Assembly (NCBI GenBank): GCA_945874455.1
Contig: CAMCHO010000022.1
Span: 1-40,195 of the forward strand
Origin: Opitutus sp. GAS368
GTDB taxonomy: Bacteria; Verrucomicrobiota; Verrucomicrobiia; Opitutales; Opitutaceae
Length of the DNA: 40,195 nucleotides
Direction of reading: 5' to 3'
Every line of letters begins with the position of its first letter. Positions within the stretch are counted from its first letter, which is position 1. The notes beneath the pieces are model-generated. The model saw nothing but the letters and a program-made list of their open reading frames with translations. It did no database searches and was not told the origin of the DNA. A program made the translations under genes and the position numbers. Shown here piece after piece: positions 19,215 through 29,327 of this stretch.

Positions 19215-21980
<2,766 letters not shown>

Positions 21981-22117: not shown

Positions 22118-23212
22118 TCAGGCGACGAGGAGCGGTTCGAGGCCGCTGAGGCGGAGGGCTCGCGGTGGGGCGTGGAGGCGACGTGCGGGCAAGGAGCGCA
22201 CGGCTTGCGCGATCGCCGCGATGTGTGGCGGCGTGGAGCCGCAGCAGCCGCCGACCATATTGACGAAGCCGCTCGCCGCGAATTCGCCGAGGACGGCGGC
22301 CATGTCGGCGGGCGTCTCGTCGTAGCCGCCAAAGGCGTTGGGCAGGCCGGCATTCGGGTAACACGTGACGTAGCACTCGGCGATTTTGGCGAGTTCCTCG
22401 ACGTAGGGGCGCATGGCTTGGCCACCGAGGGCGCAGTTGATGCCGACGGAGAACGGCTTCGCGTGGCGGATGCTGTGGTAAAATGCGCCGATGGTTTGGC
22501 CGGAGAGGGTGCGGCCGGAGGCGTCGGTGATGGTCACGGAAATCATCACGGGCACGCGTGAGGCTTCACCGCGCTCGTCGAAGATACTCTCGATGGCGAA
22601 GAGCGCGGCTTTGGAGTTGAGGGTGTCGAAAATGGTCTCGACGAGGAGGGCGTCGACGCCGGCATCAAGGAGAGCGCGGATTTGTTCGGAGTAGGCGGTG
22701 ACGACTTGCTCCCAAGTGACGGCGCGGTAGTCGGGGCGGTTGACGTCGGGTGACATCGAGAGCGTGCGGTTGAGCGGGCCGATGGCACCGGCGACGAAAC
22801 AGTGGCGGCCGGGCGTGGCGGCTTCGGCCGCGAGGGCGGCGCGGCGGGCGCAGGCGACGGCGGCGAGGTTCAGTTCGGTGACGATGGGCTCGAGTTTGTA
22901 GTCAGCCTGGCCGATGGACGTGGAACTGAAAGTATTGGTCTCAACGATGTCGGCACCGGCCGCAAAATAGTCGGCGTGAATTTTTTCGACGATGTCGGGA
23001 CGCGTGAGGCAGAGGAGATCGTTGTTGCCCTTGAGGTCGTGGGGGAAGTCAGCGAAGCGGGTGCCACGGAAATCGGCTTCCTCCAAGGTGTAGGTTTGGA
23101 TCATAGAACCCATCGCGCCATCGAGGATGGCGATGCGCTCGGCAAAGATCGCTCGAAACGCGGCGGCGCGGGCGGCGGAGGGCGAGGATGGGTGCTGGAC
23201 GGACGTGGACAT
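22118..23212 (-). CDS. metH: Methionine synthase homocysteine-binding domain (split MetH N-part)
   Basis: This 364-residue protein starts at ATG 23212 (MSTSVQHPSSPS); the frame is open further up, but that part overlaps the control region. It is the zinc-dependent homocysteine S-methyltransferase barrel of MetH: ILDGAMGSMIQTY at the front, NDLLCLTRPDIV, ETNTFSST and DALLVETIFDTLN. The three zinc-ligating cysteines are in INCALGG and VGGCCGSTPPHI. It ends with LRLSGLEPLLVA, exactly where the linker to the folate domain begins in one-piece MetH. It must cooperate with the downstream 921-residue partner. Spacing and co-orientation suggest an operon. An imperfect palindrome lies 44 bp before the start. 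Confidence 0.92.
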   Translation of the reverse strand: MSTSVQHPSSPSAARAAAFRAIFAERIAILDGAMGSMIQTYTLEEADFRGTRFADFPHDLKGNNDLLCLTRPDIVEKIHADYFAAGADIVETNTFSSTSIGQADYKLEPIVTELNLAAVACARRAALAAEAATPGRHCFVAGAIGPLNRTLSMSPDVNRPDYRAVTWEQVVTAYSEQIRALLDAGVDALLVETIFDTLNSKAALFAIESIFDERGEASRVPVMISVTITDASGRTLSGQTIGAFYHSIRHAKPFSVGINCALGGQAMRPYVEELAKIAECYVTCYPNAGLPNAFGGYDETPADMAAVLGEFAASGFVNMVGGCCGSTPPHIAAIAQAVRSLPARRLHAPPRALRLSGLEPLLVA

Positions 23213-23255
23213 GCAGCAAAACCGTAGGAGTCGGGACACAGGCTTAGCAAGGCTA

Positions 23256-23275
23256 CATATCGATACATCGCTATG
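23256..23275. promoter_or_regulatory. Imperfect 20-bp palindrome, candidate operator of metH
   Basis: CATATCGATACATCGCTATG matches its own reverse complement at 16 of 20 positions. It is centred about 54 bp upstream of the metH N-part start codon and before the riboswitch on the other strand. A tandem ATGCGTTG ATGCGTTA follows at 23273-23288. The symmetry and AT-rich flanks suit a dimeric repressor site, for example an ArsR-type methionine-cycle regulator. The regulator's identity is conjecture. Confidence 0.4.
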
Positions 23276-23323
23276 CGTTGATGCGTTATTATCGCGATTG
23301 AGCTTGCGGGTGGGCGGTGGCGG

Positions 23324-23592
23324 CCGTGAGGTGCGCACGCCTGACGTTCTTTTTCACTTTTGGGAAACAGGAAAGGCCGTGAGAACCGGCCACAGTTGCG
23401 CTGCGGTATCGCATCACAGACCCCCACCGCGTTCAGGATAACATGACGGAAATCGCACGGTTTCCGCTGCGAAATCCTCGGGCGACGCGGGCAAAGCCAA
23501 TCCGGGACTTCGGTCGCGGGTGAAGGCGAGGGGCGAGGCGCCGAGACGGAAACGTCGCGGCACACATGCGGAGTCCGAATATCTGCTCCCGA
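23324..23592 (+). promoter_or_regulatory. Cobalamin riboswitch upstream of the BtuB-like gene
   Basis: The leader of the TonB receptor shows the conserved cobalamin aptamer elements in order. AGGTGCGC is at 23329-23336, and AAACAGGAAA at 23365-23374 (consensus AAxAGGGAA). Stem GGCCG/CGGCC encloses the seven-base loop TGAGAAC (23380-23386; consensus TGCGAAT). The core ACAGTTGCGCTGCGGTAT is at 23392-23409. The GCCA...ACTTCGGT...GGTGAAGGCG hairpin is at 23496-23528, and a B12-box-like GAGTCCGAATATCTGC at 23571-23586. About 85 nt of extra sequence sits between the core and that hairpin, making it longer than average. It should reduce receptor expression when adenosylcobalamin is plentiful. A 6-bp hairpin (23606-23628) may belong to the expression platform. 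Confidence 0.8.
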
Positions 23593-23637
23593 GAGACTCA
23601 CGCGTCTGGGGTGGATTGCGCCCCCCGGTCGCGAAAA

Positions 23638-23657
23638 CTTCATCGCAAACTATGAAG
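23638..23657 (+). other. Perfect 6-bp hairpin in the receptor leader
   Basis: CTTCAT (23638-23643) and ATGAAG (23652-23657) pair around an 8-nt loop, between the riboswitch and the receptor start. It has no U-tract. It may contribute to translational control or RNA stability. Confidence 0.4.
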
Positions 23658-23732
23658 CGTGAGGGTGGTGACCCGGCCGGCGGCGGCGCGTGGTTCTGCT
23701 CTTGCCGCGTCGATCCAGCAGACCAGTCATCT

Positions 23733-25682
23733 ATGAAAATCCATCATTTCCCCTTTCTCACTATGCGGGCGCTCGGGGCGCGCGCAGTCACGGAGCCCAT
23801 GGCGGGTGCAGGTCGATTTTTTTTTAGCGCGACGTCGCGGCGACAAGCGCCGGCCCTGCGCGTCGGGATGTTGGCGATGGCTTTGACGGCGAGGGCGGCG
23901 GCGCAGAGTGCGCCCGTTTCCCAACTCGATCCGGTCTTCTCGACGGCCACGCGCACGCCGACGCCGCCGCAGACTATCGGGTCGGCGGTGGCGGTTATTT
24001 CGGCGGCGGACCTCGCGCGACGGCAGGCGACGTCGTTGGCGTCGGCCCTGGGGCTCGCGACCAGTGCGCCGCATTTTTCTTCGGGAGCGAGCGGGGCGAT
24101 CAACTCGCTTTTTTTGCGCGGGGCGAATTCGAACCAGACGCTGTTTTTGGTCGATGGTATTCGGCTCAACGATCCCAACACCGATTATCAGGTGTTTCTC
24201 GGTGGGGCGTGCGTGAGCGCGTGCGACAGTCTGGAAATCGCGCACGGGCCGCAGAGCACGCTTTATGGTGGTGAAGCGGTGGGTGGCGTCGTCTCTCTGC
24301 GAGCGCAGCGCGGCACCGGTGCGCCGAGTGCGCGGGTGTCGGCGGAGGCGGGAAGTTTTGGGACGGTGCAGGGCTCGGTCGCCGCGCAAGGGACGACGGG
24401 AGTGAACAGCTATACGTTTGCGACGGCGGGTGGGCGGACCGACAACGACCGGACGAACAATGCGTTTGAATCGGCGACGACGACGTTGCGGCTCGACCGC
24501 ACGGTGAATCAACGCGTCTCGGTGGGCGGAACCGCGCGCTGGTTTCATGGCGTGTATGGTGACCCGGGAGACCGTTACACGAACGATCCGGATAATGAGA
24601 CGCGGGAGGAAAACGTGCTGGTAACGGCGTTTGCCGACGTGACGTTCGCGGACGCGTGGACGGGGCGCGCGGTGGTGGGCGGGCAAGATCGACGCTTCGT
24701 GGCGGAGAGTCCGCGCGCGGGTCGGGCGACGGCGTTTACCGTGGTGAAGAATCGCCGCGCGGTGCTCGACACGCAGACGACCTATACGGGTTTCGAGCGT
24801 CAGCGCATCACTGGCGGCGTAACCGCGGAGGCGAACCACACGCGCAATACGGGCTTCGGCGACATTAATAAGAAGCAAGGACTGCTGGCGGTGTTTGTGC
24901 AGGACCAATGGTCACCCCGGGATGACGTGTATCTCACCGGTGGTCTGCGTAACGATGATTTCGATACGTTTGGGCGAGCGACCACGGGACGCTTGACAGC
25001 GGCGTGGCTGGTGGCGACGCGCGCGGTGAAACTACGCGCGAGCTACGGCACGGCCTTTCGCGCGCCGAGTTTTTTGGATTTGTATGGGCAGAGTGCGTTC
25101 TACGTCGGCAATCCGGCGCTGCAGCCGGAAAAAGCGCGGGGCTGGGACGCGGGGGCAGATTGGTATTTGGCGAACCAGCGCGGGACCTTGAGTGGGACCT
25201 GGTTTGAGACCGACTTCACTCACTTGATCGCGAGCACGGCCAATTTTCGGAGCGTGGAAAATATTCAACGGGCGCGCACCCGGGGCGTGGAGTTAGCTGC
25301 GCAGACCACGCTGCCGGGGGCGGTGGAAGTGCGGGCGAGCTACACCTATTTGGAAGCACAGAATCTGACGGCTAATATCCGTCTGCTGCGTCGTCCACGG
25401 CAGAGTGGCAGTGTGGATGGGTGGCGTGCGTTGGGCGGCGGCGTGAGTGCGGGAGCGGGGGTGGCGTTTGCGGCGCACCGGCGGGACGTGGATGCGAAGA
25501 CGTTTCGACAGATTGACGCGGAAGACTACACGGTCGTGCGGATTTACGGAGCATGGCAGGTGGATGCGCGGCTCGCGCTGAAGGCTCGCGTGGAGAATCT
25601 GCTCAACGAAAACTACGAGGAAGTGAACGGTTACCCGGCGCTGGGCTTGGGGGCGTTTGCGGGAGCGGAGTGGAGGTTCTGA
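23733..25682 (+). CDS. btuB: BtuB-like TonB-dependent vitamin B12 receptor
   Basis: This protein of about 649 residues begins MKIHHFPFLTMRALG; other in-frame ATGs at 23763 and 23799 would give a more normal signal peptide, whose hydrophobic core is LRVGMLAMALTARAAAQ. The mature part starts LDPVFSTATRTPTPPQTIGS, comparable to the TonB box and start of BtuB. A plug domain follows (LFLRGANSNQTLFLVDGIRL, LEIAHGPQSTLYGGEAVGG), then about 22 barrel strands ending in the aromatic FAGAEWRF. Length and plug spacing fit BtuB/cobalamin transporters. The cobalamin riboswitch in its leader and the adjacent B12-dependent metH support B12 uptake across the outer membrane. The inner-membrane ABC components are not in the window. 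Confidence 0.85.
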   Translation: MKIHHFPFLTMRALGARAVTEPMAGAGRFFFSATSRRQAPALRVGMLAMALTARAAAQSAPVSQLDPVFSTATRTPTPPQTIGSAVAVISAADLARRQATSLASALGLATSAPHFSSGASGAINSLFLRGANSNQTLFLVDGIRLNDPNTDYQVFLGGACVSACDSLEIAHGPQSTLYGGEAVGGVVSLRAQRGTGAPSARVSAEAGSFGTVQGSVAAQGTTGVNSYTFATAGGRTDNDRTNNAFESATTTLRLDRTVNQRVSVGGTARWFHGVYGDPGDRYTNDPDNETREENVLVTAFADVTFADAWTGRAVVGGQDRRFVAESPRAGRATAFTVVKNRRAVLDTQTTYTGFERQRITGGVTAEANHTRNTGFGDINKKQGLLAVFVQDQWSPRDDVYLTGGLRNDDFDTFGRATTGRLTAAWLVATRAVKLRASYGTAFRAPSFLDLYGQSAFYVGNPALQPEKARGWDAGADWYLANQRGTLSGTWFETDFTHLIASTANFRSVENIQRARTRGVELAAQTTLPGAVEVRASYTYLEAQNLTANIRLLRRPRQSGSVDGWRALGGGVSAGAGVAFAAHRRDVDAKTFRQIDAEDYTVVRIYGAWQVDARLALKARVENLLNENYEEVNGYPALGLGAFAGAEWRF

Positions 25683-25721: not shown

Positions 25722-28700
25722 TCAGAACTCGAAGGAGTTCGTGAGCGTCCACTTGTCGGGTTGGGGGATGCGGGCGCTGGCGGTTTGGCCGTTGGGTTGG
25801 GACGTGACCGCGATCAGCTCGCCGGGGCCGAAGAGGTCGCGGACGTTGAGCTGCACGCTCCACTTGATGCGGTCCTTGAGGATCTTTCGGCTGTAGCGGA
25901 GCCAGGCGTCGTAGTTGATTTCGTCGCTGCCGTAGTAGGGCCGTGTCACGTCGTAGACCCAGACGCCGATGGCGTTTTTCTTGACGGGGAAACCGGTCGC
26001 GACCTTGTCCTGCCAGCGGACGGCCCCGCCCACACTGAAGCCTTTGAACGGGCCGGAGCGGAAATCGTAATTGTTGACGACGTTGAAGCGCCAGCGGCGG
26101 AGCTCCTGCACGGGCGAGCCGTCGGCGGCGAGCGCGTTGAGGTAGGGGACATACATGTTATTGATGGCGAGCACGCCGAGCTGGCTGCCGAAGCCGCCGA
26201 AGTAGGGGATGTCCTCAAAGCCGTTCATCGCGCGTGTATTCGTGGCTTGGATGCCGTCGCCGTCGGTCCAAAGCGGGAGATTTTTCTTCACGAAATCCGC
26301 GAAGTCGGCGCCGACGTTGGTCTTTTTCGCTTCCTGCATCGCGGCGTTGAACGAGATGCGCCAGTTCTTCGTGGGGTTGAGCGTGCCTTCGAATTCCCAG
26401 CCCTCGGAGACGGTATCGGCGACGTTGCCGACGTTGGGCGGACGGGTGGCCGTCCAATTGCCGCCGGCGACGGGCTGGGTGAAGGCCCACGTCTGCGCGA
26501 GCACGGGATCGACGGGGCGGAGCCACTCGGCGGCAGTGCGCTGGGTGAACCAGAGGTTGCGCGCGGTGGTCTCGGCGGGAGTGAGGACGGGGTTCAGGTT
26601 GTTGGCTTGCGCGGGATCGGTGAGACTCGCGCGAGGCGAGAGGTAGCGGGAATCACCGGGGGTGAAGCCAAACCACTTGTTGATGAGTGACTCATTTACT
26701 TGGGTGCCGCGCAGACCGTTCATGGCGCGGACGGTGTCGTTGCCGGGCCAGAAGGTATTGTAGAAAGTCGAGGCGTCGTTCGATTGCGTGGTGCGGTAGC
26801 GGTTGACGCGCAGGGTGAGTTTTTGGTCGAGGACGGAGAGCGTGACGCCGAGGTCTTTGGTCTGGCCGGCGGGCGGACTGAAAGGGCGGCCGTAGACATC
26901 GGCGAGGGCGGAGTTGGGGCGGAAGTTGCGGGATTCGTTGTAGGCGAGGGTGAAGTCGGTGCCGCGCGGGAGGACGCGCTTCACAAACTGTGGGGCGTGG
27001 AGGACGGCGCTCCAGCTGAGCGTTTCGTCTTCGGCAAAAATGGTGGGCGTGGTGGGGAGGACCCAGAGCGGATTGTAGGGATCGGTTTCGCCGGTGAGGG
27101 ACGCTTGGCGGGCGGGACCGGCGTCGCGGAGAGCGAACTCGTCGTGGCGCCAGCCGACGAGGCCGACGAGTTTGTCGCTGAACAAATAGCTCTGCCAGAC
27201 GAAGGACTGGCTCTTGGTCTTATTCGAATTTTTTGAAGCGCCGTTGTAGAGTTTGCTGAGGTCGCGTTCACCGGCGCTGAGCGTGGTGACGGGCGCGTAG
27301 ACCCACTGGTTGATGCGGCTATCGAAGAGGAGGGCGGTGCCGGAGGCAGCGGGCGTATGAACGGCGGTGATACCGGAGATGTGGGCGTTGGCGGCGGAGG
27401 TGGCGCCGGCGAGCGAGCTGCCGAGGTAGTGGATGCCGGCGTAGCCGGGGTAGGTGGTGGTGTTGGGGTTGTTGGCGTAGGCGTTCAGCTCGAGGCCGTA
27501 GGAGTAGCCGGAAATGCTGCGGCTGAAGTTCTCCACGCTCTGATCGGTGTAGGAACCGGTGAAGACGTGTTTGCCGAGGTGGCGGAGCAGGCCGGATTTT
27601 TGGCGGAGATCGAGCGTCGCGTAGGCGGTGCTGCGGAGGGCGTCGCGGGTGGCATCGACGAGGTTATTGCCGATGGAATCAGACGAGACGAAAGGGCGGC
27701 CGAAGTTGGCGTTGGGTTTTCCGTCGACGAGCTTGGTGTTCATGTCGACGTAGATCGTGTAGGCGTCGAAGCCGAACATGCCGAGGTTGTCGCGATGATG
27801 GGACTGCCGATCATAGGAGACCTCGAAGCCGACGAGGTCGCGGAAAAACGTTTGGCGGAGCGTGGCGTTGAGCGCGCGGAAGTCGGCCCCTTCGCGTTTG
27901 TTGGGGCCGTCGAGGAGTTGGTCGTAGAAATTAAAAATCGAGGGATCGCGCAGCTCCTGGTAACGCCACAGGCCGCGGTAGGCCGCGCCGGCGGGAGCGA
28001 ACTGTTGGTTGAGGAAAAAGAGGGGATTGTTGCCCTGCGTGGTGTAACTGCCGATTGCATACCATTGGGTATTGGGCGTGCCGCCGCCGCTGCGCATGAA
28101 GGGAGGGACGCCGTTGCCGCCCTGCACGGCGGAGGCGGGATCGGTGAAGACGGCCCCGACGGCGCCGAACCAGCGACCGGGGGAGCCGAGCTGGGCGTTG
28201 AGGAAAGGATTGTTGGTGACGTTGCCGGGCGTGGTGGGATCGAGGGCGACCTTATTGAGAATGTTAAACCACGCGGAGATGCCATCGTGCGGCGGATTGG
28301 GGCGGGGGCGGTTGGAGTTTTGGGTGCCGCCCTCGTAGTTGACCTGCAGCTGGGTGAGACCGGTCTTGATGAGACGCGGCTCGAATTTAAAGGAGGCGAA
28401 CACGCGGCGATCCTCTTCGAAGGCGGGTTGCTGGCGGTAGCCCTCCTTTTTATTGAGCGCGATCACGCGGACGCCGAGGAGGCCCCGGGCGATGGATTGG
28501 TTGAGGTCGAGGACTTCGCGGTGAGAGTCGAAACGTCCGATGGTTTGCTCGAACTTGAGGGAATTCTTCTGGAGATTTGCGGCTTTGAGCTGGTTATTGA
28601 TGATACCGGCGGGGCTGCCGAGGCCAAAGAGGATGGCGTTGGCGCCACGGGAGATGTCGACGCGCTCCGTGTTGTAGGCATCCATCGGAATATTCGTCAG

Positions 28701-29183
28701 GAAGAAATCGCGGGTGAGATCGGCACCGGAGAGACCGCGCACGCGGGTGGCGCCGCTGGGGCTTTGGAGCGTGCCCTCGGCGCTGGAGAAGCCGTTGCCG
28801 GTGCTGACGCCGGAGAAGTTGCCCTCGAAGCCGCCGGCTTCGGTGTTGGTGGTGTAAATGAGGATGTCGCGGAGGTTGGTCGAGCCGGTGTCGATCATGA
28901 ACTGCGAAGTCACGACGGAGATGGCGGCGCCGACGTCGCGGAGATCGGTGCGTAGGCGCGTACCGGCGAGGGTGCTGGTTGCGGCGTATCCGCGGTCCTC
29001 GGACTCAGAGACCACGAAAGGAGTGAGCCGCACGGCTTCGTCCGCGCCCGTGGCGGCGGTGGTGGGCTGGGCGGTGGACGCCGGGGGGGCGGTTTGGGCG
29101 CGGAGGTGCGGGAGGCCGAGCAGACAGAGCGCGCCGAGCATTGCGAAGGCGAGGTGTGACAGGTTTTTTCGGGAGGTGGGCAT
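25722..29183 (-). CDS. Very large TonB-dependent outer-membrane receptor
   Basis: From ATG 29183 (MPTSRKNLSHLAFAMLGALC) this is a 1153-residue protein with a signal peptide ending near LRAQTA. The segment LTPFVVSESEDRGYAATSTL leads into a plug domain (DVGAAISVVTSQFMIDTG, TRVRGLSGADLTRDFF, ERVDISRGANAILFGLGSPA) and a long beta-barrel finishing NSFEF, with a C-terminal aromatic. This architecture is multiplied in Opitutaceae and related bacteria and imports unknown substrates, probably oligosaccharides or siderophores. The frame is open 33 codons further upstream, but the signal peptide fixes the start. It converges with btuB, leaving 39 bp, and stands alone with no adjacent regulator or degradative enzymes to reveal its ligand. 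Confidence 0.9.
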   Translation of the reverse strand: MPTSRKNLSHLAFAMLGALCLLGLPHLRAQTAPPASTAQPTTAATGADEAVRLTPFVVSESEDRGYAATSTLAGTRLRTDLRDVGAAISVVTSQFMIDTGSTNLRDILIYTTNTEAGGFEGNFSGVSTGNGFSSAEGTLQSPSGATRVRGLSGADLTRDFFLTNIPMDAYNTERVDISRGANAILFGLGSPAGIINNQLKAANLQKNSLKFEQTIGRFDSHREVLDLNQSIARGLLGVRVIALNKKEGYRQQPAFEEDRRVFASFKFEPRLIKTGLTQLQVNYEGGTQNSNRPRPNPPHDGISAWFNILNKVALDPTTPGNVTNNPFLNAQLGSPGRWFGAVGAVFTDPASAVQGGNGVPPFMRSGGGTPNTQWYAIGSYTTQGNNPLFFLNQQFAPAGAAYRGLWRYQELRDPSIFNFYDQLLDGPNKREGADFRALNATLRQTFFRDLVGFEVSYDRQSHHRDNLGMFGFDAYTIYVDMNTKLVDGKPNANFGRPFVSSDSIGNNLVDATRDALRSTAYATLDLRQKSGLLRHLGKHVFTGSYTDQSVENFSRSISGYSYGLELNAYANNPNTTTYPGYAGIHYLGSSLAGATSAANAHISGITAVHTPAASGTALLFDSRINQWVYAPVTTLSAGERDLSKLYNGASKNSNKTKSQSFVWQSYLFSDKLVGLVGWRHDEFALRDAGPARQASLTGETDPYNPLWVLPTTPTIFAEDETLSWSAVLHAPQFVKRVLPRGTDFTLAYNESRNFRPNSALADVYGRPFSPPAGQTKDLGVTLSVLDQKLTLRVNRYRTTQSNDASTFYNTFWPGNDTVRAMNGLRGTQVNESLINKWFGFTPGDSRYLSPRASLTDPAQANNLNPVLTPAETTARNLWFTQRTAAEWLRPVDPVLAQTWAFTQPVAGGNWTATRPPNVGNVADTVSEGWEFEGTLNPTKNWRISFNAAMQEAKKTNVGADFADFVKKNLPLWTDGDGIQATNTRAMNGFEDIPYFGGFGSQLGVLAINNMYVPYLNALAADGSPVQELRRWRFNVVNNYDFRSGPFKGFSVGGAVRWQDKVATGFPVKKNAIGVWVYDVTRPYYGSDEINYDAWLRYSRKILKDRIKWSVQLNVRDLFGPGELIAVTSQPNGQTASARIPQPDKWTLTNSFEF

Positions 29184-29327
29184 AGGACTTGGGCGGGGGT
29201 GGAATGATCGTGAGACCGAGGTCAGAAATCGGGGTGCAGCGAGCGACATAGTCCGGTGAGTTAAATCACAGATCGGTCGCAAACCACGAGGGTAGATTTT
29301 TTCGTAAGAGTAAAAGGCGTGGGAGGC

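Follow-up and report, generated by a model that had tools for sequence, protein, structure and literature searches.

The closest described relatives of the element studied here are cobalamin riboswitches that control B12 uptake and use. In the Escherichia coli btuB leader, helix P14 is described as controlling access to the Shine-Dalgarno sequence (PMC11162775), and both there and in env8HyCbl the kissing interaction is reported to stabilise P13 and to favour the hairpin at the ribosome-binding site (RBS) (PMC10653944). For the P. megaterium metE switch, the same paper describes a pairing, formed in the unbound state, that joins the 3' side of the P13 region to the regulatory hairpin at its 5' side; dissecting two transcriptional switches, it calls unknown how ligand binding by the aptamer drives refolding of the platform. 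At the level of DNA, MetJ regulons include btuB, and the core targets of SahR include metH, metF and metK (PMC4239095). In this study, we have followed up an earlier note on a 40,195-nucleotide (nt) stretch of Opitutus sp. GAS368 (contig CAMCHO010000022.1 of assembly GCA_945874455.1; the whole stretch is called the window), in which a BtuB-like TonB-dependent receptor diverges from the two genes of a B12-dependent methionine synthase (metH). Judged by sequence comparison, the receptor's leader is a cobalamin riboswitch of the class-I type with long variable arms. We consider it likely that this riboswitch shuts off translation of the importer when B12 is ample, and that metH stands under a separate operator. 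Neither the riboswitch class nor the kissing loop nor the RBS hairpin is new; among the titles and abstract openings listed by searches of one open-access library, none described this platform, the metH-btuB gene pair or the decoy loop introduced below.

The leader shares with class I of RF00174, whose features we in part take to be such from general knowledge, a T-loop-like L4, a GGUA-type junction, P7, peripheral arms, a B12 box, the L5-L13 contact and a TonB receptor downstream. Unlike the class-I consensus as given in PMC10653944, L5 here reads UUGCG and not UCCCG. When the window's leader was scanned alone, RF00174 aligned over its full length (23327-23603) at 15.7 bits (E 0.11), under the gathering score of 31.5; the Rfam gathering scan of the whole window gave no match at threshold, RF01482 and RF01689 (the other cobalamin families named in the earlier note) gave none either, and a search of the complete own genome with RF00174 returned nothing at E<=1. 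Because Rfam by itself would miss the window's aptamer, we used homologous leaders for the proof. The covariance scan proposed in the earlier note gave a divided answer: no model passes its threshold in the window, which taken alone would fall to the note's first refuting condition, and 10 of 40 homologous loci reach at least 31.5 bits with RF00174 (top score 54.8 bits). At E<=1 the model matched 31 of the 40, always on the receptor strand. Comparison of orthologous leaders, which the note had also proposed, clearly went against the note's second refuting condition and found a conserved leader with covarying helices, the core CAG-loop-CTGCGGT standing at the expected place in 98 of 106 upstream regions from genomes of the family, in 36 genera. 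In an alignment of 33 leaders and 26 pairs, whose members were picked for shorter arms (the window's excepted), 96.3% of cells were paired, as compared with 34-49% for slid structures, and 16 of the 26 pairs had changed on both sides, against 6.4 in shuffles (0/500).

Every element that the earlier note had quoted from this plus-strand leader could be located within the aptamer, which we place at 23346-23592. P4 with its T-loop-like L4 (GGCCG-UGAGAAC-CGGCC, 23375-23391) is paired in 100% of cells of alignment A1 and scarcely varies; P5-L5 (CAG-UUGCG-CUG, 23393-23403) follows, with CGGTAT (23404-23409) directly on its 3' side. Both P4 and P5 are nearly invariant and so carry little covariation weight. 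P7 is formed by CGCAU (23410-23414) and AUGCG (23566-23570), with 4 of 5 pairs changed on both sides and 99.4% of cells paired. The covariation alignment, together with a check of the sequence, also supports a conserved hairpin GCCAAUCC...GGGUGAAGGC (23496-23527), at whose 3' end lies GGGTGAAGGC (23518-23527). The B12 box GGAGUCCGAAUAUCUGC (GGAGTCCGAATATCTGC in DNA letters) occupies 23570-23586, and its GGAGTCCGAA is near-invariant in alignments A1 and A2. The predicted ligand, taken from the riboswitch family, is cobalamin. Tens of nucleotides upstream of the core, GTTCTTT (23346-23352) is conserved in most leaders and is a candidate for the 5' strand of P2, pairing with the box. A P1 built from CCGTGAG on the 5' side of the aptamer and CTCACGC on its 3' side was discarded, as it is not general and CTCACG covaries with the CGTGAG that follows P13. 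One relative (G002; locus L143, G002:C5) carries a second riboswitch copy with platform before another gene.

The earlier note had also described an unusual insertion of about 85 nt between the core and the following hairpin. There are indeed 86 nt between the two, and these include the 5' strand of P7, a strand rich in C and a peripheral arm CCGCG...CGCGG (23427-23489, plus strand), in which all 4 counted pairs changed on both sides and 81.3% of cells are paired. Relatives carry the same arm, often much shorter (for example G112), and among them core and box lie 98 to 310 nt apart; this wide variation in arm length rules out an anomalous insertion and leaves an ordinary, length-variable arm. 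In several genera a dispersed palindromic repeat with a 7-nt period (AAGTNACAAGTNNCAAG and the complementary form) has lengthened another aptamer arm, the one between the GGTGAAGGC hairpin and the P7 3' strand, as in the leaders of G046, G061, G128 and others; matches to this repeat in the seven genomes searched ran from 0 (G000, G112) up to 38 (G046).

On the other side of the control region, and on the minus strand, the homocysteine, pterin, B12 and activation domains of MetH are all four present, spread over two genes as first noted. The N-terminal gene (22118-23212, preferred start ATG 23212) encodes the homocysteine-binding domain (PF02574, 311.5 bits, scanned on the longer open reading frame 22118-23338), and the C-terminal gene (19215-21980) encodes the pterin-binding, B12-binding and activation domains (PF00809, PF02607, PF02310, PF02965) and exceeds the NCBIfam cut-off of TIGR02082 with 1162.8 bits. 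The receptor (23733-25682, plus strand, preferred start ATG 23733) has plug and beta-barrel domains (PF00593 and PF07715, scanned on the longer frame from 23520); we name it only BtuB-like because its best match among 26 NCBIfam families, TIGR01779 (TonB-B12), scores 229.6 bits and does not reach the cut-off of 599.7. The two start codons are 520 nt apart, and that of metH lies about 115 nt from the beginning of the RF00174 alignment, close to the 110 bp estimated before. In E. coli, by contrast, the gene divergent from btuB is trmA. The closest relatives of the window are metagenome-assembled genomes of Opitutaceae, one of which has a receptor 97% identical to this one.

This arrangement of importer and consumer in one divergent region, which the earlier note had proposed from the window, recurs throughout the family. 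Among 150 genomes of the same family, 138 have a relative of the receptor and 131 the homocysteine half of MetH, and at 87 of 140 receptor places a split or fused metH diverges within 3 kb; 12 of the 140 stood outside our table, and by eye none of these is on the same contig as a metH match. In three further genomes (G041, G075 and G098) the platform adjoins metH though the receptor is under the cut-off. Judged by the length of the open frames, a few of which are truncated at contig ends, the opposite gene is split at about 67 of the 86 head-to-head places for which a leader was available and fused at about 19. The core is present in 81 of these 86 leaders and absent from G005, G053, G076, G081 and G104. 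In four of those five (G005, G053, G081, G104) the gene order is kept, with gaps of 218-312 nt between the matches, and these appear to be losses of the switch. The picture of a riboswitch-controlled importer facing a split metH is supported by the homologous leaders of 36 genera, by RF00174 matches and by covariation.

What controls metH appears to be different. By eye, many split-metH leaders contain a palindrome ACATATC...ATAT..TTGATATG between metH and the aptamer, which in the window is CATATCGATACATCGCTATGCGTTGATGCG (23256-23285), a predicted operator of a methionine/S-adenosylmethionine (SAM)-cycle regulon. At up to 3 mismatches, the own genome has a single other operator place, directly before the start of metF. 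Allowing 2 mismatches, operator matches were found in 11 of 14 relatives, as 22 separate sites, of which 10 lie at metH and 12 elsewhere; all 12 of the latter precede metF (6), metK (4) or an adenosine deaminase gene (2: G148, G072). Protein models confirmed metF in G000, G006 and G007, metK in G090 and the deaminase in G072, the others being named from protein sequence. Breakdown of S-adenosylhomocysteine releases adenosine, so that a deaminase fits such a regulon. Since the operator is shared with metF, metK and the adenosine deaminase gene, metH is probably under SAM-cycle control. A putative regulator is also at hand: G000, G090, G044, G006 and G007 each have one HTH_5 (ArsR-type) match in a frame of 315-500 codons, and Pfam finds a methyltransferase domain in that protein in all three genomes scanned for it (G000, G090, G044), both domains appearing in one run only in G044. 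An ArsR-type helix-turn-helix joined to a methyltransferase is the architecture that we take to be that of SahR. No operator was seen before the regulator gene or ahcY. The system resembles SahR and MetJ regulons in having a palindromic operator before metH, metF and metK and an ArsR-methyltransferase protein encoded in the genomes; the published study is confined to Proteobacteria (PMC4239095), and the likeness is one of target genes. The earlier suggestion that metH is probably not under direct B12 feedback gains indirect support from this shared operator and from the strand of the 31 RF00174 matches.

Between the aptamer and the receptor lies an expression platform whose stretch from the box to just past P13 has a nearly constant length (94-114 nt in 83 leaders). 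On the plus strand it contains a closing helix X, whose 5' strand CUCACG (23597-23602) has its partner at 23658-23663 (paired in 94.7% of cells, with changes on both sides in 3 of 6 pairs) and which encloses two hairpins. The first, at 23606-23628, is the decoy hairpin (L12), with 8 of 8 stem pairs changed on both sides and 89.8% of cells paired; the second is the P13-L13 kissing hairpin CUUCAU-CGCAAACU-AUGAAG (23638-23657), with 97.0% of cells paired. Directly after P13, CGUGAGGG (23658-23665) can serve either as the 3' strand of X (CGUGAG) or as an anti-RBS strand (GUGAGGG) of an alternative helix Y, which can pair with 23699-23705. At the start codon, a simple hairpin finder gives hairpin Z (UCUGCU 23695-23700 with AGCAGA 23717-23722), and it reported a hairpin at this place in 76 of 89 leaders, some of them clearly spurious; many Z stems are compensated, with strands as unlike as GGAUUUCUGCU/AGCAGAGAUCC and GGCAACUG/CAGUUGUC.

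For the platform as a whole, 82 distinct sequences gave 92.9% of cells paired, 13 of 25 pairs changed on both sides as compared with 8.7 when shuffled, and a covariation score of 0.200 against 0.089 in shuffles (0/500); of the 13 pairs, 11 belong to X and the decoy hairpin and 2 are loop-loop pairs. A model of the platform found a single strong copy in the own genome, that of the window (99 bits, the next at E 4.8 or worse), and of 387 genomes of the phylum, 39 have the platform at E<=0.01, made up of 31 from the family, 7 from other families of its class and 1 from another class. GUGAG belongs to both X and Y, and Y and Z both draw on the CUCU strand or what adjoins it; among the 81 platforms folded, none combined X with Y or Y with Z. 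On the plus strand no terminator-like site was found between the aptamer and the start codon, the sole such site (23329-23342) lying before the aptamer, and an intrinsic terminator was therefore rejected. We also rejected a leader peptide starting from the P13 AUG (MKRES...), as its frame relative to the receptor and its continuation vary and no peptide is conserved. The 3' arm of P13 (23652-23657) reads AUGAAG, and in G131 this AUG is in frame at the receptor start; in G072, G114 and G148 an ATG lies within about 15 nt after P13, giving a shortened platform.

Unexpectedly, L13 in this platform has two potential partners. Kissing between L5 and L13 is a known contact of class-I cobalamin riboswitches, and in the window L5 (UUGCG, 23396-23400) is complementary to L13 (CGCAA...) over 5 nt; in the E. 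coli btuB leader sequence, the corresponding loops are CGCGU in L13 and ACGCG in L5. Compensated versions occur in the family (UUACG/CGUAA in G062 and in L218 and L222 of a held-out set; with a bulge, UUAGCG/CGCAUAA and UUCUCG/CGCAGAA) and outside it (UUCGCG/CGCCGAA, with a bulge; UGUCG/CGAACA beside UGGCG/CGCAACA). The loop of the decoy hairpin repeats the L5 letters (UUGCG, 23616-23620) and is likewise complementary to L13, up to UUUUGCG/CGCAAAA in the longest case. Among 96 leaders (the 98 with a core minus G031 and G117, which have no P13), 75 had, in the decoy region, the reverse complement of the 5-mer in the same leader's L13, as compared with a mean of 3.8 and a maximum of 10 in 200 shuffles, to be read in the knowledge that these shuffles were mononucleotide ones and that relatedness inflates the counts. 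By class of L13, the match was found in 87% of 63 leaders with CGCAA, 67% of 18 with CGCAU, 78% of 9 with CGCAC and 1 of 1 with CGUAA. The held-out set was drawn from 53 loci, 47 of which were examined (the rest being fragments or a distant match) and 22 of which were new; three of the new ones lacked a core (L224 and L247, whose upstream sequence is short, and L254, with 2500 nt upstream), and of the 19 left, 11 had a decoy:L13 match of at least 5 nt (500 shuffles: mean 1.1, maximum 4), L236 and L245, whose loops were possibly misread, being scored as misses. When 33 variants were considered, 20 matched their own L13, against a mean of 11 and a maximum of 17 in 2000 permutations, and compensated pairs include UGAUGCG/CGCAUCA, UGUGCG/CGCACA, GUGCG/CGCAC and AUGCG/CGCAU. 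In eight genomes outside the family the decoy:L13 match never exceeded 4 nt, and in the E. coli btuB leader, inspected by eye, no L5-like sequence lies between the box and P13. On this evidence the L5-L13 contact is old, and the second partner has the look of a family trait that some lineages have lost or lack. The decoy and L5 contacts would be mutually exclusive, since both use the same CGCA of L13.

Starting from the parts that comparison of homologues supplied (the aptamer, P13, X, the decoy stem, the complementarity of L13 to L5 and to the decoy, Z, and the operator at metH, metF and metK), we infer the ligand, the direction of switching, helix Y, the role of the decoy and the regulator protein. 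Ligand binding would stabilise the L5-L13 kissing contact, which would hold P13 and X together and so occupy the anti-RBS strand GUGAGGG; with this strand occupied, Z would form at the start codon and translation would be off. Without ligand, GUGAGGG would pair with CUCUUGC as helix Y, Z would be blocked and the start would be open. The decoy loop may hold L13 in this ligand-free state, so that B12 would have to win L13 away. On the other strand, metH would answer to the separate DNA operator of the methionine/SAM-cycle regulon. The presence of the E. coli-type parts and the mutual exclusion of X with Y and of Y with Z in the folds lead us to favour a translational OFF switch, and repression is probably translational. 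Several observations weigh against this reading or its parts. Beyond the sub-threshold RF00174 score of the window, no pair of P13 has changed on both sides, and the stability of the window's platform is no better than that of shuffles (z -0.75). Folded alone, platforms formed Z in 64 of 81 cases and had Y in the lowest fold in 15 of 81, so that energy does not predict the ligand-free ON state; for the window's platform, the choice of stretch decided whether Y or Z appeared in the fold. Clades with UAGCG have only about 3 contiguous L5:L13 pairs. The decoy lacks complementarity to L13 in 21 of the 96 and 8 of the 19 leaders, among them all five with the L13 classes CGCCA (0/3), CGCAG (0/1) and CGCUU (0/1) and a lineage with a longer, different hairpin at that place, such as most of the held-out failures have. 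At the metH side, 3 of the 14 relatives (G003, G004, G049) have no operator at 2 mismatches. A consensus search of the region turned up no sigma-70-like promoter.

The part of the model that concerns the decoy is its most tentative one. We propose, as a serious candidate that still falls somewhat short of probable, that a second copy of L5 on the 3' side of the aptamer captures L13 without ligand in a three-way junction like that of purine riboswitches, and that B12 moves L13 from the decoy to L5. No second kissing partner is described for the P. megaterium metE switch in the accessible part of PMC10653944, and that switch also differs in ending in a terminator, where the present platform has a start-codon hairpin. 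The main rival for the role of the decoy is a permanent structural brace, in which decoy and L13 would kiss at all times within the X three-way junction and L5 would have another target or touch L13 briefly. In its favour, decoy:L13 complementarity reaches 7 nt in 21 of the 96 leaders, as compared with 5 contiguous nt for L5:L13, L13 tracks the decoy more closely than L5, and the architecture resembles what we take to be the loop-loop kissing of purine riboswitches. However, L5:L13 complementarity is kept and compensated, also in relatives without a decoy match, and the two loops compete for the same CGCA; we regard the brace as unlikely, in the knowledge that the energy calculation does not decide the matter. 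Less likely still is a switch that acts mainly on transcription, through Rho or an intrinsic terminator. The E. coli btuB leader is described as also Rho-regulated, downstream of translational repression (PMC11162775), and this would be a precedent, but the plus strand here has no terminator-like site in the stretch from the aptamer to the receptor start, most of the leaders examined have Z at the start codon, and the in-frame P13 AUG of G131 and the early ATGs of the three shortened platforms also speak against it.

The separate-operator model also has to be weighed against the view that the head-to-head order is an accident of inheritance, the two sides being unrelated in regulation. That the sensors on the two sides differ would agree with this view, and so would the finding that 17 of 20 leaders with no head-to-head metH seen, several of them at contig ends, keep the core before the receptor. 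Nevertheless, the order is found with both split and fused metH, and among the 128 tabulated rows it is kept at 66 of the 82 places whose receptor has at least 47% identity; of the other 16, 8 have no metH match at the cut-off, 7 have metH on a different contig from the receptor, and in 1 (G050) metH is at another place on the receptor's contig. We therefore judge an accident of inheritance to be rather improbable, and continue to prefer an importer under the riboswitch and a metH under its own operator within one conserved region.

Two further observations concern the neighbourhood. A comparison that took in the window's 22118-23212 and loci L150-L167 set apart eight of the fused MetHs opposite a riboswitch (G112, G062, G126, G025, G040, G071, G043 and G030): their homocysteine domains share about 44% identity with the split type and as much with another fused type, whereas their C-terminal parts share about 69% with the split and about 61% with the other fused type. 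A replacement of a MetH module at the same locus, or faster evolution, is possible; the distances of the two halves disagree, and unrooted trees (three groups, a single topology) show no conflict. In the window, a second, much larger TonB-dependent receptor-like protein (1186 amino acids, 25722-29282, minus strand) is convergent with the BtuB-like receptor and has siderophore-receptor matches, all of them weak.

In conclusion, our results describe an importer and an enzyme that are joined in one conserved region and apparently read by two different sensors. A natural L5 mimic supported by covariation supplies a specific competitor state that can be put to the test in translational cobalamin switches. 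If both the competitor loop and the operator are confirmed, B12 would be sensed through RNA and the SAM cycle through DNA within a single divergent region. Unlike typical members of RF00174, the leaders of this family have long variable arms that leave 30 of the 40 scanned under the Rfam threshold, and B12 control in Opitutaceae is therefore probably under-annotated.

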